From a virus, in the IMG/VR virus record IMGVR_UViG_3300042450_002380, positions 1-23,041 of that record: a stretch of DNA of 23,041 nt; one strand, written 5' to 3'. Positions 3,836-23,041 of this stretch are shown one piece after another (position 1 is the first letter of the stretch; each line of letters starts with the position of its first letter). Under the pieces are notes generated by a model. That model was not told the DNA's origin. It searched no databases and worked only from the letters and a program-made list of their open reading frames with translations. The position numbers were made by a program, and so were the translations under genes.

Positions 3836-4741
3836 TTATGTCAGCCCGGCGAGATCGAGGCTGCAGGCTGACACCACCGGCCCTGGAATGTCGATGCGGA
3901 AGCCTTTGTAAAACCCGTAAATAAATGTTGAGGAATACCCTTCGATGCCGACCCACACCACTGGCGTGGCGCGATAAGATGCCAGGAGCAAATGTAGCGC
4001 ATCGATGCGCATGTTTTCGACCTCAACCGCAAAAGTGGCACGCTTGCTGTAGGCGCGCTCCAGAATGCTGAAATTACCCCACACATCTTGTTGCTTGACG
4101 CTATAGTCATCGATCCCTAGCGATGCGCCATTGTCGGTGAGGCCGAGGCTGAACTGCATCCCGAGCACCAGTTCACCCAGCAGTGCTGTGGCACCTGGAG
4201 CCGATAAAAGCACCCTCACAGTGGGGGCGTAGTACGCCGGCAGATCCAGCGCCACAAAATCAGAAACGCGAACAATCGGCTCGTAGAAATACACGTACCA
4301 GTCAGTGATTCCCATTGTCGAAACCAGGCTGGTCGTTTTGTCATAAACAACACCATCAATGGTGTCCGTGACGATGATGCGAACCGTCGCTCCGGCGATA
4401 TTCATCAGCGCGATGCCGTTGACCCGACCAGTGCAATTGATCGTCACATCAATGCTATCAGCGTTACTGGTTTGTCCCGACACCACCGCATCAAACATGC
4501 GCCAGCGATTGGTCGCGCCCACTTTCAGCCACCAGGTATCTGCTGCCAGTCCGGTCGTGAGGTGCCCTGTGTTGGCGTTTTGCAGAGACTCGATGATCCA
4601 ATGCTTATTGGCGGCGATGTAAATCACGCGCGCGCCCAGGGCATAAGTCGTTGCCGGGTTGTACGCCGCGTAATCAGTTTCTGGTACGTTGCTGCTGGTC
4701 AGGGTGGCATCGTTTACTGGCATGGGCCGAATCATCTTCAT
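3836..4741 (-). CDS. Tail protein with CBM5/12-like N-terminal module
   Basis: A 301-aa protein whose ATG (4739-4741) overlaps the tape-measure stop as ATGA, so it is a tail gene acting just after the tape measure. Residues about 24-73 (AAYNPATTYALGARVIY, then WIIESLQNANTGH and DTWWLKVG) show the aromatic and Gly spacing of chitin-binding type 3 (CBM5/12) modules. The rest is beta-rich without a catalytic signature and ends in FIYGFYKGFRIDIPGP. The position fits a distal tail or tail-tip component, and the module could touch cell-surface glycans. It is the only gene between the tape measure and the fibre, where siphophages usually carry several tip genes. The exact role is inference. Confidence 0.75.
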   Translation of the reverse strand: MKMIRPMPVNDATLTSSNVPETDYAAYNPATTYALGARVIYIAANKHWIIESLQNANTGHLTTGLAADTWWLKVGATNRWRMFDAVVSGQTSNADSIDVTINCTGRVNGIALMNIAGATVRIIVTDTIDGVVYDKTTSLVSTMGITDWYVYFYEPIVRVSDFVALDLPAYYAPTVRVLLSAPGATALLGELVLGMQFSLGLTDNGASLGIDDYSVKQQDVWGNFSILERAYSKRATFAVEVENMRIDALHLLLASYRATPVVWVGIEGYSSTFIYGFYKGFRIDIPGPVVSACSLDLAGLT

Positions 4742-7700
4742 ACCGTTCTCACGGCGGGCATGCCATCGTTGTCCCAGCGACGCACCATATCCGCGGTTGC
4801 TGAAACGTGGCGTGCGATTGCATCATTAGTTTTTTTGAGTTCTGCGCGGAGTTGGCGAATTTCTGCCACAAACGCAGCATTGCCGGCATCGGGGCTGCGC
4901 AGCCGCGCCATCAGCTCGCGGTTATCGGCCGCCGGAATGATGCGCTCGCCAGTATGAATGTTAGCTGGCATATCGTAGGGCACGTAGTCGGTGCCGACGG
5001 CAAATGACGGCCGGAATGCGTTGGTCTGGCTCAGCAGCGTATTGCTGGCGGTCTGCCTGGTGTGCTGGTAGCGAATATAGTCCGTCAGCGTGGCAAAATA
5101 GTCCTCTGTCAGCGCGACGATACCCTGGCCCAACTGCTCAGTCGCATTGGTCAACGATGCAAACGCGGGCGCGAGTTGCACCAGCGCTGAGAACATTCCC
5201 TGCCCGGCATTGGTGCTTAGATCCTGCGCCTCGGTCAGGGCGCGGTACTGGTCGAGCGTGGCGGGTAGAGTGGTCAGCCCGAGATTGGAGAGCTCATGAT
5301 TCAGCAGCCGCCAGCCGCTGGCGTTGCGCTCGGCGTCGGTGTAGAAATTCTGGTAGTACGCCTGCAGCGGCGCAGCCGCCTTATCCACTCCCCCAAATAA
5401 CTGGATCAGGTTGTCGCGTGCGACGGTGCTGGCCAGCCCCAATGCACCAAACGACTGCCCGGTGAGATCGATCAGTTCGGTGGTCAAAATGAATTCCGAG
5501 CGCATGCGTTTGGCGGTGTCCGTCAACTGCTCGCCCTTCTGCTGCACCGCCGCCAATTCCGGCACCAGGCGCGTGCCGATGCTGTTGGACACGTCAATAG
5601 TCAACTGCTTGATCTTCTCTTCAGAGTCGATTTGCCGTCGCACTGAATAGGTCCAGCCTGCGAGCGAGCGGGCGCCTTCATTGGCCGACATTATCAAATC
5701 GGCGTAGACCGCAGAGGCCGAGGCGACGACCGAAGAGAGGCCTTGTTGCGTATCCTCGCTAAGAGCAGTGTGGTCTACTCTGTAACGGTTTTTACGAAAC
5801 CACCCGCCTTTGCTGCGCATTGTTTGCTGCAGGTCCCCGCCGAAGCCGCTGGCATCAAACTGTCCGACCAACTCCTGCGGGCCAATCGGTTTAAACGGGC
5901 CGCGCCCAAACATGGTGTTCAGCATGGGACCGAGCACCGGCACATAATTCAGTACCTTCCCCACGCCGCCACCAATTACTTTATCACCAGCGAGTTTTCT
6001 GAAAATCAGATCAACCGCAATCAGTGCAATCGCAGGCCCGGCCATTGCTGCCAGGCTAGCGCCGATGGTGGCGGCAGCACCCATGCCCGTGCCTGCGATT
6101 GCCGTACCGGCGCCACCGATGAACGCAGTACCTGCCCCACCTGCCGCACTGAATATGCCTGCCGTGGAGCCGGCTAAGCCAGCGCCGAAGGCGCTCACTG
6201 CGCTGGAACCGAACATACTACCAAGATCAGCAATACCGCTGCCGAGCGTGCTGGTGAGGCCGCCGGTGACTGCACTGAAAATGTTGCTGGCGCCGGAGGC
6301 GATGTTCATCAGGCTGAGGCCACCGCTGCTCACCGAGCCCCCTGTGGCGTTGGCTGCCCCCGCAGCAAAACTCCCGCTCAACGAAGTGCCGATGTTAATG
6401 ATCCATTTACGCACCGTGAGCTGATACAGCAGATCAATGATGGACATCTTGATGGATTGCCCGATGGATGCCATCGCGCTTGTCCCGTGTGCGGCGAATT
6501 GCACGAATGCCATCCTTCCGGTCTGTTCCATCGTGCTCCACATCCGACTCCAGTCTTCCCCTGCCTTGGCGATCTGTTGCTCTTTCACTAGATCGCGCTG
6601 TAGTTGCGCGAGCGCATCCAGATCGTTGGCATGCTGCATGTATGCATCATGCAACGGCCCGGCATAGACGGCCGCACTACGCAGGTTTGCCGCAAGTTCC
6701 TCGTTCTTCGATCCGGTCAATGCGATGATCTGTTCGTTACTCATGCCGATCATGGCATTCTGTTCACGCAGCGCGTCGATCTGTCCTTGTACGCCGGTGA
6801 TCTGCCGCTGGCCGGATTGGATCAGATCATCAGCGGCTTTCTTGGCGGCCTGCATGGCGATCACTGATTGCTCGGTGGTGAGCAGATTTTCCAGATCTCC
6901 GGTCAGTTTGATTTTCTGCACGCTGGTCAGGTTGAGCGTGCCGTCGCGCAATTTGACCATGGCATCCAGTGCGGTTTTCTGCCCGTCAGTCAACTTGGCC
7001 TGCCCGGATAATTCGAGCGCCTGCGCGGCAGTTTTCTCATGGATCGAGCCAATCAGTTTGTCGTAGGCATTGATGGCGGCTTTGGCGTCAGAGGCACTGG
7101 CAGCTGCCGCGCCAGACTGGTAGTTGAGTGCGGGCTTGGCTACTGCGGGCGTGTTGATTTTGGAGGTTTGCTTCGTGACCTCGGGCGAGCCGTTCCATAC
7201 GTTGCCGATGAATTTTCCAATCGATGCGGCGTTGCCTTTGTAATCACTCAAGAACGCATCCTTGATTACCTTGACGCCGGAGAAATCCAGATGCGCGAAG
7301 CGATCGGCCATCGCAGCCGCCGCCCCAATGGCAGCGCCGACTTGGGTGAATACATACCCCACCAGTGAGCCCGCGGTGACCAGTCCCTTGAGGGCGATCC
7401 CTGCCGCATCGGCGGTGGCGGTGAATGCCACCGTATTGGTCGAAGTATTGTTCATTGCTCCGGCGATATCGGTCAGCGCTGGCATCAGGTTCAGTGCCAT
7501 GGAGGTGTACAGCGAATCCACATGCCCGCTCATCAGCCCCATCTGGTCTTTCAGCAGTGAGGCCTGCTGCGCGGCCTCGGTCGAGACACCGGAGAAGCGG
7601 CTGATGTTGTCCGCCATGTCGTTCAATACCGGCATGATTTCCGCACCGGATTTACCGAACAGATCAGTGGCCAGCGCAGTCTTGCCCGCGCCATCGGCGT

Positions 7701-8214
7701 AGTTCTGTAAATTCCTGGCGATCTCGATCATCACCTGGGACGGATCGCGCAAATTGCCAGCGGTATCGCGCGAAGAAATACCCAGCGCCTTGAGTGCGTT
7801 GTTGGCTTTGTTGGTATCGCTGTCTATCGTGCCCATGCCCTTGGCGAGCTTGGCAATGGCGTTATCGACTGCGCCGAAATCACCGCCGAATGCAGCAACG
7901 GTTTTCTGGATACGAGAGAGGTTCTCGACCGAGGAGCCAGTCTTCTGCGCCATGTCGTCGAGTTTGGCTAAGGTGTTGATGGAGTTACTCAGACGGTCGA
8001 TCGCAGCGTTGATACCGGCATACGCGGCCACGGCCGCAACTGCGCCGGTTGCGATACGGCTGAAATATTGCTTGGCTGACTTCTCGGCAGAATCAAAATT
8101 ACGCTGCACATTTTTGGCATGCATGAGCGCAGCCTGACTGGATTTGTCGAGACCTTGGGTGTACTCGGCATATTCCAGCGCGAGTTTCACCACCAATGAT
8201 CCGAGTGCCGACAT
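4738..8214 (-). CDS. Tail length tape-measure protein
   Basis: A 1158-aa protein, the longest in the window, placed after the tail chaperones as in lambda-like phages. It sets tail length and is ejected with the DNA. The N-terminal half is alpha-helical (ALMHAKNVQRNFDSAEKSAK, then DDMAQKTGSSVENL). Hydrophobic stretches occur near residues 53-73 and 268-305, followed by a Gly/Ala/Ser-rich segment around 620-740. Near the C-terminus the conserved GTDYVPYDMPANIHTGE (about 1068-1090) and a final coiled coil are typical of this family. I chose ATG 8212-8214, with AAAGGA upstream, over a TTG two codons earlier. The start lies 2 nt after the preceding stop. Confidence 0.95.
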   Translation of the reverse strand: MSALGSLVVKLALEYAEYTQGLDKSSQAALMHAKNVQRNFDSAEKSAKQYFSRIATGAVAAVAAYAGINAAIDRLSNSINTLAKLDDMAQKTGSSVENLSRIQKTVAAFGGDFGAVDNAIAKLAKGMGTIDSDTNKANNALKALGISSRDTAGNLRDPSQVMIEIARNLQNYADGAGKTALATDLFGKSGAEIMPVLNDMADNISRFSGVSTEAAQQASLLKDQMGLMSGHVDSLYTSMALNLMPALTDIAGAMNNTSTNTVAFTATADAAGIALKGLVTAGSLVGYVFTQVGAAIGAAAAMADRFAHLDFSGVKVIKDAFLSDYKGNAASIGKFIGNVWNGSPEVTKQTSKINTPAVAKPALNYQSGAAAASASDAKAAINAYDKLIGSIHEKTAAQALELSGQAKLTDGQKTALDAMVKLRDGTLNLTSVQKIKLTGDLENLLTTEQSVIAMQAAKKAADDLIQSGQRQITGVQGQIDALREQNAMIGMSNEQIIALTGSKNEELAANLRSAAVYAGPLHDAYMQHANDLDALAQLQRDLVKEQQIAKAGEDWSRMWSTMEQTGRMAFVQFAAHGTSAMASIGQSIKMSIIDLLYQLTVRKWIINIGTSLSGSFAAGAANATGGSVSSGGLSLMNIASGASNIFSAVTGGLTSTLGSGIADLGSMFGSSAVSAFGAGLAGSTAGIFSAAGGAGTAFIGGAGTAIAGTGMGAAATIGASLAAMAGPAIALIAVDLIFRKLAGDKVIGGGVGKVLNYVPVLGPMLNTMFGRGPFKPIGPQELVGQFDASGFGGDLQQTMRSKGGWFRKNRYRVDHTALSEDTQQGLSSVVASASAVYADLIMSANEGARSLAGWTYSVRRQIDSEEKIKQLTIDVSNSIGTRLVPELAAVQQKGEQLTDTAKRMRSEFILTTELIDLTGQSFGALGLASTVARDNLIQLFGGVDKAAAPLQAYYQNFYTDAERNASGWRLLNHELSNLGLTTLPATLDQYRALTEAQDLSTNAGQGMFSALVQLAPAFASLTNATEQLGQGIVALTEDYFATLTDYIRYQHTRQTASNTLLSQTNAFRPSFAVGTDYVPYDMPANIHTGERIIPAADNRELMARLRSPDAGNAAFVAEIRQLRAELKKTNDAIARHVSATADMVRRWDNDGMPAVRTV

Positions 8215-8216
8215 GA

Positions 8217-8651
8217 TCAATCCTTTTGACGATTCAGAACTTCCAGCGCGGTGGCCTCCATTATTTGGAGGTCATCCCACAGCTTTTTGCGTTTCTTTTT
8301 TGATTTCGGCATGCGCGTTTCGACTCCGGCATAGTCCAGGCCCAGCCAATGCACCCGCTCCATGCCGCCGATTGCATTCCATTGCGTGCCTACCCGCAGG
8401 AAAAATAGGACGCTGTCCCAGTTTTCTGAGAACACTTCGAAAGCATCGGCAGTATCTTCGTGCGGCGTGGCGGCTTGCTCGATGCGCGCGCGCACTGCTT
8501 CGATTACATCGTCCGGTGCACTGTCAGCAATCAGTCCATCGAGGACGGCAGTACCGTGCTGGAGCCGCGCGGCGGGAGCGGGCCTGTCACCCGCCCACCA
8601 GCGCGCGGCCTCCTCTAGTTTTTTATTGATGCCTTGACGACGTTGCTCCAA
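8217..8651 (-). CDS. Tail chaperone frameshift extension (DUF1799-like, gpT-type)
   Basis: A 144-codon frame lying -1 relative to the preceding chaperone and overlapping it by 37 nt. The only start in the overlap is a TTG at 8649-8651 without a ribosome binding site, so it is best read as the extension of a fusion made by -1 frameshifting at 8618-8624. The predicted fusion is 242 aa: 109 residues of the first frame, then LEEAARWWAGDRP onward. The C-terminal half (EVFSENWDSVLFFLRVGTQW, GLDYAGVE, WDDLQIMEATALEVLNR) fits DUF1799 phage proteins found just before tape measures. By analogy with lambda gpGT it would bind the tape measure and recruit tube subunits, and be absent from finished virions. 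Its stop lies 2 nt before the tape-measure ATG. Confidence 0.85.
   Translation of the reverse strand: MEQRRQGINKKLEEAARWWAGDRPAPAARLQHGTAVLDGLIADSAPDDVIEAVRARIEQAATPHEDTADAFEVFSENWDSVLFFLRVGTQWNAIGGMERVHWLGLDYAGVETRMPKSKKKRKKLWDDLQIMEATALEVLNRQKD
8564..8624 (-). promoter_or_regulatory. Programmed -1 ribosomal frameshift site
   Basis: On the minus strand the last sense codons of the first chaperone read ATA AAA AAC followed by the TAG stop. They form the classic in-frame slippery heptamer A_AAA_AAC at 8624-8618. Eight nt downstream a perfect 8-bp GC stem can form (GCCGCGCG at 8609-8602 with CGCGCGGC at 8571-8564, 30-nt loop), at the right spacing for a stimulatory structure. The -1 frame continues as AAA CTA GAG into the long downstream frame. 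Slippage here yields the gpG/gpGT-type pair conserved in long-tailed phages. Confidence 0.9.
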
Positions 8652-8944
8652 AACGCTTCCATCAAGCCGTATAACGCCTGCGGGATCGACAATAACGCCT
8701 GCACTTCAGCTTCATTGAAATCAACCGGCGCACCCTGTTCATCGACAAACTCTTTCCAACCGAGCAACACTCGTTCCATCACCTCGCGGGCGGGCAGGTT
8801 GCGCAACTCTTCCAGCTCGGCGGAATTGCCGATGTACTTGAATATCGCATCGAATTGCGACTTGTCGTGTCCGCCTTTGTCGTTGGGCATATTCACCGTC
8901 ACGCGACTGGTGAAGGTGGGCTTAGCGGATTTTTTAAATGTCAT
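8615..8944 (-). CDS. Tail assembly chaperone, short form (gpG-like)
   Basis: A 109-aa protein between tail tube and tape measure, the fixed slot for the tail assembly chaperone. It has an N-terminal beta-strand section (MTFKKSAKPTFTSRVTVNMP) and a helical remainder including LRNLPAREVMERVLLGWKEF and a Glu/Asp-rich FNEAEVQALLSIPQALYGL. This fits phage TAC families that coat the tape measure during tube polymerisation. It ends exactly at a slippery heptamer, so a minority of ribosomes should extend it into the DUF1799-like frame. The start ATG is at 8942-8944 with a weak GAGGAA-type ribosome binding site. A terminator-like hairpin lies about 22 nt upstream of the start. Confidence 0.88.
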   Translation of the reverse strand: MTFKKSAKPTFTSRVTVNMPNDKGGHDKSQFDAIFKYIGNSAELEELRNLPAREVMERVLLGWKEFVDEQGAPVDFNEAEVQALLSIPQALYGLMEAFWSNVVKASIKN

Positions 8945-9013: not shown

Positions 9014-9946
9014 CTAAGTGAATGTCACAACCAGTTCATCTCGCCCGGCATTGGCCTGCAAATCCATGCTCGAATTGCAATGGGCAATGCCTTGGTCGGA
9101 GGTATAAGACAAATTTGTCAATTGCACTTTGGGAGCGCTAATACCGGAAATGTAGCCAGCAGTTAGCCCGTGTGTCACGGCCAATGCGCCGAGCGTGCCG
9201 TTCTTGATTACGCTGTACCAGTCTTTCACGGCAAGCGTATCCACTTCGAAAACTGCACTGCCCACCGGCATGCGGTTGGTGATCTGAATGCCCTCGAAGT
9301 TGGGTTTGTTGACGTACTCCACCTGATTTGCCAGATCGAGTGTTTGTGATTTGGATTTGAGCGCAATGCCGTGCAAGGTGAAGGCGGTGGTATTGGCCTT
9401 GTTGATCGGTAGCGGATCTTTGAATCCGGAGTAATCCGTTCCGGAGGGATTGGTGAGGTCTGTTGGAGTCGAGTAAAAGCCCCAGAATTTGAATTTCATC
9501 ACCGGGATGCCTTGTGCATTCAGATCGAATGAGACCGTGCCCTTCGCATCAGTGATTACGTGTTTGATCCCATCAAGGAAATAATAAAACGAGAGTAATT
9601 CGTGCGCGGTATCGACCGGCGTATAGCCAACACTGGTAGCTGCCACGATGGTTTCCCCTAACGCGCAGGCACGTAACAGCGGACCAAACTTGGGCGGTGT
9701 ACCGGCAACGCCGGAACCCTGCATCTCCACTTCGAATTCGATGGTGGAATGCACGGCGACCACGACACTACCGGGATTGCCCATCCATGCCAGCACATTG
9801 TTGCGCTTCACGATCTGCGCATTGAGTGGATCGACTTTTGGCTCGCTGCACAAAATGGCATTGGCGCCGACGGTTGGGACAGAATCTGTCCCGGCGACCG
9901 GCTGGATTTTTGCGAGCAGGATTACGTTACGCGATGCTTTTGACAT
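9014..9946 (-). CDS. Major tail tube protein
   Basis: A 310-aa protein in the slot between the tail terminator and the tail chaperones. The N-terminal pattern (ILLAKIQPVAGTDSVPTVGANAI, then MGNPGSVVVAVHSTIEFEVE) is that of siphophage tail tube subunits of the phiE125/Pseudomonas prophage type, with beta-sandwich composition, few charged helices and the family phrase FWGFYSTPTD in the middle. Subunits polymerise into stacked hexameric rings around the tape measure. The ribosome binding site CAGGAG lies 7 nt before ATG 9944-9946. The gene stands alone between hairpins, consistent with independently tuned high expression. It is somewhat longer than lambda gpV (246 aa). Confidence 0.88.
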   Translation of the reverse strand: MSKASRNVILLAKIQPVAGTDSVPTVGANAILCSEPKVDPLNAQIVKRNNVLAWMGNPGSVVVAVHSTIEFEVEMQGSGVAGTPPKFGPLLRACALGETIVAATSVGYTPVDTAHELLSFYYFLDGIKHVITDAKGTVSFDLNAQGIPVMKFKFWGFYSTPTDLTNPSGTDYSGFKDPLPINKANTTAFTLHGIALKSKSQTLDLANQVEYVNKPNFEGIQITNRMPVGSAVFEVDTLAVKDWYSVIKNGTLGALAVTHGLTAGYISGISAPKVQLTNLSYTSDQGIAHCNSSMDLQANAGRDELVVTFT

Positions 9947-13969: not shown

Positions 13970-14254
13970 TCAATGTCGCACTGGCGGCCATTGCCTTGCT
14001 GCGTGCAGCACGCGCAGAATACGTACCAGATCGGTCGTTATGTCGTAGATCAGGATGTAATTCTGATGTGCCACCAACTCACGGGTGCCGGTAACGCGAC
14101 CCTGTTGACCCAAACTCGGATGATCAATCAGACGGTTGGCTTTCTCAGAAAGAAGCTCATCGAGAGCCAGTGCAGCGCTTGGGTTATCGGTCTCTATGTA
14201 GTCATAGATCGCACGGCGGTCATCTATGGCTTCATGCGTCCAGAATAGTCTCAC
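13970..14254 (-). CDS. RelE/ParE-superfamily toxin
   Basis: A 94-aa protein with the compact RelE/ParE pattern: an N-terminal FWTHEAIDDRRAIYDYIE helix, SEKANRLIDHPSLGQQGRV, and a C-terminal sheet carrying TRELVAHQNYILIYDI and VRILRVLHAARQWP. The conserved Arg (TREL), NYxLxY tyrosines and the LHxxRQWP end are those expected of mRNA-cleaving RelE-type members; ParE-type gyrase poisons share the fold, so the target is open. The start is GTG (14252-14254), overlapping the antitoxin stop as GTGA. No defect is visible. It lies between prohead protease and capsid, an unusual site for a toxin. Confidence 0.9.
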   Translation of the reverse strand: MRLFWTHEAIDDRRAIYDYIETDNPSAALALDELLSEKANRLIDHPSLGQQGRVTGTRELVAHQNYILIYDITTDLVRILRVLHAARQWPPVRH

Positions 14255-14538
14255 GATCTCGCTTGGATTTTACGGCGCGTCGCATCCCTGCGCGCTGCAA
14301 ATTCTGATTCCACCTCTTCGTTGGAAACCAGGCGACCCGCATTGGCCGAATCCAATCCTACCTGAACTTGGCGATGGAACCAGACGCCATGCTCGGCGGC
14401 GTCCTGCTGCTGCTTGACGAAATCACGCATGAAGTCTCGCAGAAGCTGCGCACCAGTTCGGTCGCGGGACTTCGCCGCCGTAGAAAACTCGTCTTTCAAA
14501 TCCACATCGACACGGAAGGTAAAAGTTGATTCGTTCAT
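14251..14538 (-). CDS. Antitoxin partner of the RelE/ParE toxin
   Basis: A 95-aa protein upstream of and overlapping the toxin. The N-terminus STFTFRVDVDLKDEFSTAAK, with RDRTGAQLLRDFMRDFVKQQ, gives a short beta strand followed by two helices, the ribbon-helix-helix pattern of RelB/DinJ and CopG-like antitoxins. The C-terminal half (VGLDSANAGRLVSNEEVESE, FAARRDATRRK) is the charged toxin-binding tail. I chose ATG 14536-14538 because an extension to 14607 would begin upstream of the promoter and operator-like sequence. It should neutralise the toxin and repress the shared promoter. Confidence 0.88.
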   Translation of the reverse strand: MNESTFTFRVDVDLKDEFSTAAKSRDRTGAQLLRDFMRDFVKQQQDAAEHGVWFHRQVQVGLDSANAGRLVSNEEVESEFAARRDATRRKIQARS

Positions 14539-14553
14539 TGTGTTTGCCCTATG

Positions 14554-14593
14554 TGTTACATGATAAGTATACTGTATCACAAAGCGCTGCCGA
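14554..14593 (-). promoter_or_regulatory. Toxin-antitoxin promoter with operator-like palindrome
   Basis: On the minus strand a TATACT -10 candidate lies at 14571-14566, and a TCGGCA -35 candidate lies 16 nt upstream at 14593-14588. The -10 is embedded in the palindrome AGTATACT (14566-14573), flanked by inverted TGATA (14561-14565) and TATCA (14575-14579). A palindrome over the promoter is the usual operator layout for RHH antitoxin autoregulation. The stretch begins about 16 nt before the antitoxin start. It is called from sequence pattern only. Confidence 0.6.
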
Positions 14594-14630
14594 ATGAGTG
14601 GGCACATCTGCCAGGTAACAGCAGCCCGTT

Positions 14631-19960: not shown

Positions 19961-20191
19961 ATGAACAACAAAACCCTGAACGCACATGAACAAAACGTCA
20001 TTGATGCATTTAACCAAATCGCGCTCGATCATCTTTTTGTTGAAACCCTTGAAACACGCCACAGCGACCGGCTCGATTTTCATGAAGTGAGTGTGTGGGG
20101 CATCAAGAGCGCGCTGCAGGCCGCGTTCGATGCGGGCAGACACGCAGCCTGCGCCAACCAACCACAACATCAATCAGGAGATCCATCATGA
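19961..20191 (+). CDS. DUF6900-like protein
   Basis: A 76-aa protein whose core (ALDHLFVETLETRHSDRLDF, HEVSVWGIKSALQAAFDAGR) matches what I know of DUF6900 domains: a conserved 'ETLeTRnSDsLDFheVaVWsikaAL..Ay.aG' stretch. The ribosome binding site AAGGAG overlaps the stop of the preceding gene, and the stop overlaps the next ATG as ATGA. The biochemical role of DUF6900 is not known to me. It is common in conjugative elements, plasmids and prophages of Pseudomonadota, next to DUF3489 proteins. Confidence 0.85.
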   Translation: MNNKTLNAHEQNVIDAFNQIALDHLFVETLETRHSDRLDFHEVSVWGIKSALQAAFDAGRHAACANQPQHQSGDPS

Positions 20192-20697
20192 CCCCACAAC
20201 TCAGCGCCTCACAACACGCCATCCTCGCGCACGCTATTCACCACACCGATGGACGGCTCAGCTGGTTCCCCGACAACATCAAGGGCGGCGCACGCAAGCA
20301 AGTAATCGATGCGCTTTCTAATCGCACTCTGATCACCCGTGACGGTGTGCATTGGTGCGTTGCCGCCGAGGGTTACGACGCGCTCGGTATGCCACGACCT
20401 GCACCAGCACGCGGCCCGATCACGCTCGCTGCACTCGATACGGTCATCGCCAACGCCGAGGCAGCGCAAGCCGAATTACCAAAACCCCGCACACGAGACA
20501 AGAGCAAGCAGGCGCAGGTGATTGCGATGTTGCGCCGAGCCGAGGGGGCGACCATCGCACAGATCTGTGAGGCGACCTCATGGCAATCGCACACAGTGCG
20601 TGGTACGTTTGCTGGCACGTTCAAGAAGAAGCTCGGACTAGTCATTGATTCCAGCAAAGAATCTGGTGGCGAGCGGGTGTACCGCATCGGTGCCTGA
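20188..20697 (+). CDS. DUF3489-domain protein, HTH-like
   Basis: A 169-aa protein with ATG at 20188-20190 and ribosome binding site AGGAG 7 nt upstream. The N-terminal 70 residues look like a small winged-helix (SASQHAILAHAIHHTDGRLS, WFPDNIKGGARKQVIDAL, LITRDGVHWCVAAEGYDAL). After a Pro-rich linker the C-terminus has the DUF3489 pattern: KQAQVIAMLRRAEGATIAQI, CEATSWQSHTVRGTFAGTF, KKKLGLVI, then RVYRI. Two helix-turn-helix-like units suggest DNA binding and a regulatory role, but this is unproven for the family. The gene ends only 11 bp from the converging minus-strand gene. Confidence 0.88.
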   Translation: MTPQLSASQHAILAHAIHHTDGRLSWFPDNIKGGARKQVIDALSNRTLITRDGVHWCVAAEGYDALGMPRPAPARGPITLAALDTVIANAEAAQAELPKPRTRDKSKQAQVIAMLRRAEGATIAQICEATSWQSHTVRGTFAGTFKKKLGLVIDSSKESGGERVYRIGA

Positions 20698-21068: not shown

Positions 21069-22310
21069 CTAAGCGGCGCCCGTTTCCGGACACAGCGCAT
21101 TGAAGCTCACTCCGTCGCTTTGACGCGTGACCTGCTTACCGGTGTAATCCTGGAAGCGCCGAATAATTACATCGGCGTACTTCGGATCCAATTCCATCAA
21201 CCGTGCGCGACGGCCTGATTTCTCACAGGCGATCAGCGTGGTGCCCGAACCACCGAAGGGGTCCAGTACGATGTCGCGCGTCTTGCTGCTGTTGCGCACC
21301 GCGCGCTCCATCAACTCCACGGGCTTCATGGTTGGATGAAGATCGTTCTTATGCGGCTTCTTGATCTGCCACACGTCGCCCTGGTCGCGCGCACCGCACC
21401 AGTAGTGCTGTGAGCCATCCTTCCAACCGTAGAGAATCGGCTCGTACTGGCGCTGGTAATCGGCGCGGCCCATCGTAAACGTGTTCTTCGCCCAGATGAC
21501 AAACGTTGACCACTTGCCACCAGCGGCGCGGAATGCCGATTGCAACGTGTCTAGCTCAGATGAACTCATCGCGATGTAGACCGCACCCTTAGTGACCGCA
21601 AGAATGTTTTGGCAGGTCGCAAGCAGGAATGCGGAGAACCCTTCGCCCATGTTGTCGTTCAAGATCGGTCTGTGGGTGCCACGCAGCTTGTCCTTGGCGC
21701 TGTTGGCGTAGTTGACGTTGTACGGCGGGTCAGTGACCGTCATGTCGGCCAGCTCATCCCCGAGCAATGCTTTGTAATCTTCTGCCTTGGTGGCGTCCCC
21801 ACACAGCAGCTTGTGCTCACCGAGCAACCACACATCACCGGATTTGGAGATTGCCGACTCGGTGACCTCAGGTACAGCGTCATCATCGGTCAGTCCGGTG
21901 TTCTCGCTATCGAGCAATTTATCGAGTTCATCGGCGCTAAAGCCCAGCAGGTCCAGATCGAATTCCGCCGCTGACAGATCCGCCAGTTCAAGGGATAGCA
22001 ACTCGTTGTCCCAGCCTGCACTCTCGGCTAAGCGATTGTCGGCCAGAATGTAAGCGCGTTTTTGTGTGGGCGAGAGGTGTGCCAGTTCAATCACTGGCAC
22101 CGTGGCCAGCCCCAATTTGCGCGCACCGAGCAGTCTGCCGTGACCAGCAATTAACCCGCGGTCCCCATCCACCAGAATCGGATTGTTGAAGCCGAATTCA
22201 CGGATACTGGCGGCAATCTGTGCGACCTGTGCATCCGAGTGGGTGCGGGCATTGTTCGCGTAAGGGATCAGCAAGTCTACCGAACGGTATTCGATATTGA
22301 GTGTTTGCAT
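21069..22310 (-). CDS. ParB-domain DNA methyltransferase
   Basis: A 413-aa two-domain protein. Residues 1-130 form a ParB/Srx-like domain (LIPYANNARTHSDAQVAQIA, then NNPILVDGDRGLIAGHGRLL GAR). Residues 155-395 form a beta-class N6-adenine or N4-cytosine methyltransferase: catalytic DPPY at 194-197 (motif IV) precedes HPTMKP at 325-330 and the AdoMet-binding DPFGGSGTT at 350-358 (motif I). Such orphan enzymes have no restriction partner and probably protect phage DNA or modify its ends. No nuclease gene lies alongside. The start at 22308-22310 has no visible ribosome binding site; a terminator-like hairpin and T tract end 6 nt before it. Confidence 0.95.
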   Translation of the reverse strand: MQTLNIEYRSVDLLIPYANNARTHSDAQVAQIAASIREFGFNNPILVDGDRGLIAGHGRLLGARKLGLATVPVIELAHLSPTQKRAYILADNRLAESAGWDNELLSLELADLSAAEFDLDLLGFSADELDKLLDSENTGLTDDDAVPEVTESAISKSGDVWLLGEHKLLCGDATKAEDYKALLGDELADMTVTDPPYNVNYANSAKDKLRGTHRPILNDNMGEGFSAFLLATCQNILAVTKGAVYIAMSSSELDTLQSAFRAAGGKWSTFVIWAKNTFTMGRADYQRQYEPILYGWKDGSQHYWCGARDQGDVWQIKKPHKNDLHPTMKPVELMERAVRNSSKTRDIVLDPFGGSGTTLIACEKSGRRARLMELDPKYADVIIRRFQDYTGKQVTRQSDGVSFNALCPETGAA

Positions 22311-22480: not shown

Positions 22481-22873
22481 CTAAAACGCGCTAGAACACT
22501 CAGCACCTAACTGCACGGCGACCACCATCAACGCTCGCTTCCATCTGCGCCAGGCTGTTGACCGATCGCAGCCAATGCGACGACACACCTCTTTCCACCC
22601 GTAGCGATCAGCACGCATCCATACAATGTGCCGTGATTCGGGATCGAGCCACTGTACCCAGCGCATCGTCTCCAACATCCGCTCGATGTCTGCCGGACCC
22701 GGCGATATGGGCCGACCGATGTACTGCGGGTCCGGGTAGCGATCAGGCGCCTGGAAGGCCAACATCGACCAGCTGTTGAAGTAACCTTGCCCCCGATCTG
22801 GCGGCAGTCGCCGCGCTGTTTCTGCTGCCTGCACGAAGCATGCTTCCACTTCATCAATCGTCCACTTACTCAT
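22481..22873 (-). CDS. DUF6362-like HTH protein
   Basis: A 130-aa protein beginning MSKWTIDEVEACFVQAAETA at ATG 22871-22873. I rejected a longer reading from 22945 because the upstream gene occupies that stretch in another frame and the ATG overlaps its end. The C-terminus has a helix-turn-helix (YGWKEVCRRIGCDRSTAWRR WKRAL), and the centre has LETMRWVQWLDPESRHIVWM, matching DUF6362 proteins found near phage terminase and methyltransferase genes. DNA binding is likely; a late regulatory or antitermination-like role is a guess. The ribosome binding site AAGGA lies about 8 nt upstream. Confidence 0.85.
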   Translation of the reverse strand: MSKWTIDEVEACFVQAAETARRLPPDRGQGYFNSWSMLAFQAPDRYPDPQYIGRPISPGPADIERMLETMRWVQWLDPESRHIVWMRADRYGWKEVCRRIGCDRSTAWRRWKRALMVVAVQLGAECSSAF

Positions 22874-23041
22874 GGTGAGTCCTTCCGTACAGACGCTCGC
22901 CAATCCTGCGCACGATCTCGCGCTCGATGAAGTCCAGACGATCATCAGTTTCGTTCACCACCAGGATGTGCTGCTCGCGCCAACCGGCTTCCTTGATCGC
23001 GTCAAGATCCGGTACCTTTGGCTGCAGCTTACCCAACGGGC
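22866..23041 (-). CDS. Partial small phage protein, C-terminal part
   Basis: The window edge cuts this gene, leaving its last 57 codons and TAA (22866-22868). The visible peptide includes LGKLQPKVPDLDAIKEAGW, REQHILVV and a charged helix RLDFIEREIVRRIGERLYG. Its stop overlaps the DUF6362 start by 8 nt, so the two are co-translated. I recall similar short proteins of unknown role beside DUF6362 genes in prophages. The frame agrees with real coding better than the overlapping extension of the DUF6362 frame. Confidence 0.7.
   Translation of the reverse strand, partial: PLGKLQPKVPDLDAIKEAGWREQHILVVNETDDRLDFIEREIVRRIGERLYGRTHHE

Follow-up and report, generated by a model that had tools for sequence, protein, structure and literature searches.

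A probable −1 frameshift signal joining the tail assembly chaperone and DUF1799 frames of a virus that probably infects Nitrosospira

The window, meaning the whole stretch of DNA that was analysed, comprises positions 1-23,041 (23,041 nt) of the virus record IMGVR_UViG_3300042450_002380. According to profile matches, a pair of chaperone frames is placed in it between a tail tube gene and a tape measure gene, as in the G/GT type of tail module. The features of this locus are:

9014-9946, minus strand: tail tube protein (Phage_tube_2; PF18906, E 3.6e-12), the upstream neighbour
8615-8944, minus strand: ORF1, a gpG-like tail assembly chaperone of 109 aa, with an ATG start preceded by the Shine-Dalgarno (SD) sequence AGGA
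8649-8651, minus strand: TTG, the sole canonical start upstream of the slip for the window's second frame, in a weak context and unconserved
8618-8624, minus strand: slippery heptamer A_AAA_AAC in the ORF1 frame, read from the sequence, its position conserved among homologues
8615-8617, minus strand: TAG, the ORF1 stop, read from the sequence and adjoining the heptamer
8564-8609, minus strand: perfect 8-bp stem (arms 8609-8602 and 8571-8564) enclosing a 30-nt loop, within which there is an inner helix
8217-8618, minus strand: −1 frame (ORF2), the DUF1799 (gpT-like) part of the predicted fusion, 133 aa plus stop (PF08809, phrog_680)
8217-8944 (join 8944-8618, 8618-8217), minus strand: predicted −1 frameshift fusion of 242 aa, deduced from its parts and from homologous joins
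4738-8214, minus strand: tape measure protein (matches to PHROG tape measure families with E as low as 1e-30), the downstream neighbour

In the open reading frame list the tape measure gene runs from TTG 8220 (4738-8220, minus strand), but the ATG at 8214 is preceded by AAAGGA and is to be preferred as the start. Elsewhere in the window, a ParE-family toxin gene (PF05016, E 1.8e-19; 13970-14254, minus strand) and an overlapping upstream ORF that is probably its antitoxin (14251-14607, minus strand) are placed in the structural module, between the capsid and protease genes. The terminase end carries genes for a DUF3489 protein (20095-20697, plus strand), a DNA methylase (N6_N4_Mtase) whose N-terminus is weakly ParB-like (21069-22310, minus strand) and a DUF6362 protein (22481-22945, minus strand). 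The host is probably Nitrosospira, because the nearest relatives are a Nitrosospira MAG with a 95% identical protein and a viral contig (L002) with 97% identical DNA.

The pair consists of a Phage_TAC_4 protein (PF08748) and a DUF1799 protein (PF08809). ORF2 matched PF08809 with E 1.3e-11 (44.9 bits against a cut-off of 26) and phrog_680 with E 2.8e-18, which bears out a preliminary description of this DNA in which the −1 frame had been read as continuing into a DUF1799-like domain; DUF1799 was also matched by all ORF2 relatives (50/50). ORF1 matched phrog_569 (E 1.1e-9) and scored 19.5 bits with PF08748, just below the cut-off of 21.1. This family, entitled 'Phage tail assembly chaperone', was matched by 35 of 49 ORF1 relatives at E<=0.1 (best 4e-14), and the Pfam profile searches gave no sequence match to any other Pfam chaperone family. 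The AlphaFold model of ORF1 (pLDDT 82.5) was matched by Foldseek (prob 1.00, E 1.6e-4) to a protein of Klebsiella phage Solomon that is called 'tape measure chaperone' and is itself a TAC_4 protein. The ORF2 model (pLDDT 91.4) gave weak matches to tape measure chaperones, including one in phage Scapp (E 0.075, prob 1.00) whose length of 236 aa fits the annotated Scapp frameshift product. The PDB fold search with the ORF1 model and the profile searches of PDB sequences returned nothing.

The 3' end of ORF1 reads GCA TCA ATA AAA AAC TAG, in which the heptamer is parsed as AT[A AAA AAC] TAG. It is separated by an 8-nt spacer, TAGAGGAG, from a stem whose 5' arm, GCCGCGCG (8609-8602, minus strand), is the perfect complement of its 3' arm, CGCGCGGC (8571-8564, minus strand), and the −1 frame, already open ahead of the slip, continues to 8217. 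The site had been described beforehand as an in-frame A_AAA_AAC (8624-8618) directly before the TAG (8617-8615) of the short chaperone, with a perfect 8-bp GC stem 8 nt further on and a predicted 242-aa product, joined from 8944-8618 and 8618-8217 across an Asn-Leu junction; all of these coordinates proved exact. The hairpin is larger than had been claimed. It contains an inner helix as well, it is predicted to pair 8613-8610 with bases 3' of the 8-bp stem, and a folding energy of −48.6 kcal/mol is predicted for the stretch of 85 nt from the heptamer onwards (z −3.3, with 0 of 200 shuffles as good).

Homologous loci were collected in two surveys. For the first, viral and genome contigs were scanned with an alignment of the second frame, giving 115 loci with a readable pair, of which 71 were non-redundant after those at least 90% alike had been dropped; single-sequence searches had found two loci only. 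The heptamer beside the ORF1 stop was AAAAAAC in 55/71 and GGGAAAC in 14/71, and among these 69 the distance from heptamer to stop was 0 in 67 and 3 in two. Within the ORF1 bodies of the 71 homologues, the chance level for these heptamers in frame was 2/6954 positions for AAAAAAC and 0/6954 for GGGAAAC. Mapped on the protein tree, the heptamer class has undergone at least 4 changes and the stop codon, with its position constant, at least 17, so that the place of the stop is kept but not its identity. As the peptide patterns of the first survey include the Leu encoded across the slip, which could bias the search, a second survey was anchored only on the distant C-terminal TQWR/GLDY region, using a 5-row C-terminal alignment as query. 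It yielded 80 loci, 76 of them with a visible ORF1, and A_AAA_AAC was found at distance 0 in all 76 (32/32 when made non-redundant).

The two remaining loci of the first survey (L117 and L118, Halomonas llamarensis) have lost the stop-adjacent heptamer. Both have an in-frame A_AAA_AAG five codons upstream, some 15-22 nt before the ORF1 stop, in the sequence GTA AAA AAG AAC or GCA AAA AAG AAC, and this dnaX-type heptamer is, judged from its sequence, a candidate moved shift site. A further group of relatives, Pectobacterium phages Taid and Ymer, Dickeya phage Setonix, Scapp and GH-K3, has no X_XXY_YYZ heptamer though both frames are intact. The ORF1 end reads CAA AAG TAA in Taid, Ymer and Setonix (L123, L209 and L210), GCA AAA GTT TAA in GH-K3 (L217) and GAA AAG TAT TAA in Scapp (L211), which is annotated as a frameshift nonetheless. 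All of these except GH-K3 contain A_AAG, a tetramer described as shifty in E. coli (PMC5009743). In the heptamer-less relatives examined, the second frame lacks a good ribosome binding site: Taid has a TTG 19 nt ahead of the stop but no Shine-Dalgarno sequence for it, and GH-K3 offers a TTG 79 nt before the stop and no other start.

The downstream structure was also present outside the window. Across the 71 loci, the mean folding energy of 60-nt windows fell from about −16 to −18 kcal/mol to a minimum of −26 kcal/mol at the end of the heptamer, and folding energy after the heptamer was below that of neighbouring windows in 67/71. With neighbouring windows as the reference the mean z was −2.3, and with synonymous-codon shuffles −1.1; our window gave −6.6 and −2.6, respectively. 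The first stem begins 4-10 nt past the heptamer in 44/69 loci, while elsewhere such a stem is about half as common (20-26/69). The window's outer stem and heptamer recur unchanged in its close relatives L002 and L087; in their inner helix one pair is changed on both sides (G-C to A-U), two pairs are changed on one side and still paired, and one pair is broken. By these folding predictions, a downstream stimulatory RNA structure of the G/GT type is present. If there is an upstream SD-like stimulator, it is a weak one: the binding to the anti-SD observed at 4-8 nt upstream exceeds that of synonymous shuffles only slightly.

Taken as a whole, the locus very probably encodes a programmed −1 ribosomal frameshift of the lambda G/GT type, by which the chaperone and DUF1799 frames would be joined. 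Most ribosomes would stop at the TAG and release the 109-aa tail assembly chaperone. A minority would slip one base back on A_AAA_AAC, with tRNA-Lys and tRNA-Asn re-pairing with AAA AAA and with help from the hairpin just downstream, and would resume at CUA (Leu) to produce the 242-aa chaperone-DUF1799 fusion. If the products act as in lambda, the tape measure protein would be coated by the short form, and the long form, which is rare, would recruit tail tube subunits. What the sequences show is the signal with its placing and conservation, the missing alternative start in most homologues and the structure signal; that ribosomes slip, how often they do so and the tasks of the two products are inferred. 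The efficiency may be low, because in E. coli shifting is weaker at A_AAA_AAC than at A_AAA_AAG (PMC5009743). In reporters, 6-7% shifting was measured for a chaperone cluster that is related to a protein of phage HK97 (PMC3711429).

The second frame could instead be a separate gene, translated from TTG 8651 or by termination-reinitiation at the TAG, with no fusion being made. In favour of this, an open TTG lies 33 nt ahead of the slip, preceded by a weak GGA, and database records do give two genes, some with apparently non-standard starts (the C of CTG in RC1 and RS1, ATT in HK578). However, no ATG, GTG or TTG lies between the preceding second-frame stop and the slip in 59/71 homologues, a canonical start upstream of the slip was found in 0/32 non-redundant loci of the second survey, several second frames open just 6-9 nt before the slip, and conservation of the protein starts with the first codon after it (L..AAR.WA). 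The preliminary description had the window's TTG without a ribosome binding site, which needs qualifying: the TTG is preceded at 4 nt by a weak GGA(AG) (anti-SD duplex −3.3 kcal/mol), yet 32% of positions inside ORF1 bind equally well, so that this does not amount to a meaningful site. ORF2 of the window is therefore left without a good start of its own. The comparison among homologues suggested in that description favours it, as the heptamer and downstream structure are kept across distant homologues and the TTG is not. A separate start or reinitiation was rejected on account of the missing start codons in both surveys, and we consider it very improbable.

Two further explanations do away with ribosomal slippage at the heptamer, and both appear less probable still. 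RNA polymerase slippage on the run of six A would give mRNAs with an altered number of A residues, and many enteric relatives have A7 where the window has A6. The A6 run is shorter than is usual for transcriptional slippage. Moreover, G_GGA_AAC, in which no run exceeds 3, takes the place of the A run in 14/71 loci as well as in ThpS-P1, R656, CUB19 and SYP, with position and frame kept; transcriptional slippage was ruled out for this reason and its probability is put close to nil. The heptamer might also be an accident of Lys-Asn codons at the conserved C-terminus of one of two unlinked overlapping genes, as nearly all members that have a heptamer carry -KN or -GN at the end of ORF1. The codons AAG and AAT would be possible there, yet just AAA AAC or GGA AAC is used, with the matching preceding base, against an in-frame background of about 3 in 10,000, and the T1-like members are annotated as frameshifted. 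Such a coincidence is hardly credible.

The near-fixed contact between an AAC-ending heptamer and the zero-frame stop is the one point here that may deserve testing. The stop distance of 0 compares with an average of 26 nt in the SEA-PHAGES training genes (PMC10885494). Because the stop is at distance 0 in 67/69 and 32/32 loci despite at least 17 changes of stop codon, the stop could itself be part of the signal, with slow termination raising slippage on an AAC-ending site. We regard this idea as speculative and rather unlikely; if true, the ratio of long to short product would be sensitive to release factors. With their two interchangeable AAC-ending heptamers, nearly always touching the stop, the 71 divergent loci provide a test bed for the question of how bacterial ribosomes use 'mammalian-like' shift sites.

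DUF1799 relatives are found in over 1,000 phage records, and in the listed ones the usual annotation is of separate proteins, under labels such as 'hypothetical protein' and 'tail length tape measure protein'. Two genes are annotated at the AAAAAAC signals of cyanophage S-CBS1, HK578, SO-1, VarioGold, pAEv1818 and phiES15, and likewise at the GGGAAAC signals of RC1, RS1, ThpS-P1, R656, CUB19 and SYP. The join is thus missed in most of the records seen, which would be corrected if PF08748 and PF08809 were treated as one frameshifted gene. Separately, the name 'tail length tape measure protein' is given to both chaperone halves in many RefSeq phage records and in phrog_569 and phrog_680, apparently a misnomer that has been propagated.

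The class of mechanism to which lambda G/GT belongs has been reviewed (PMC5009743), and the window resembles lambda gpG/gpGT in having a short chaperone and a rare predicted −1 fusion upstream of the tape measure gene; in lambda the ratio of short form to fusion is 30:1 (PMC5009743). It differs in that no sequence match to the other Pfam chaperone families was found. The G/GT sites of the haloarchaeal viruses HCTV-1 and HCTV-2 resemble these loci in their two heptamers, G_GGA_AAC and A_AAA_AAC (PMC5009743), but their hosts are archaeal. The closest parallels are the T1-like Citrobacter phage Stevie and Klebsiella phage Solomon, which have the same two families, placed in the same order between the tail genes and the tape measure gene, and an A_AAA_AAC adjoining the stop, with the second frame in −1. 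Their stop is TAA whereas that of the window is TAG, the window ORF1 falls just under the Pfam cut-off, and its host is probably Nitrosospira. The joined frameshift product is annotated in both records and the frameshift is named in the papers on these phages (PMC4319613, PMC8407766); a literature search on the T1-like gene names TfmS/TfmA found nothing relevant. The earlier reading of a frameshifted tail chaperone is supported by the relatives in PF08748 and by this same join in T1-like phages. Because Stevie and Solomon have the same pair and heptamer already annotated as a frameshift product, the signal in the window is not new in kind, and the window is a further case of the known family of frameshifted tail chaperones that includes lambda G/GT and the T1-like phages.
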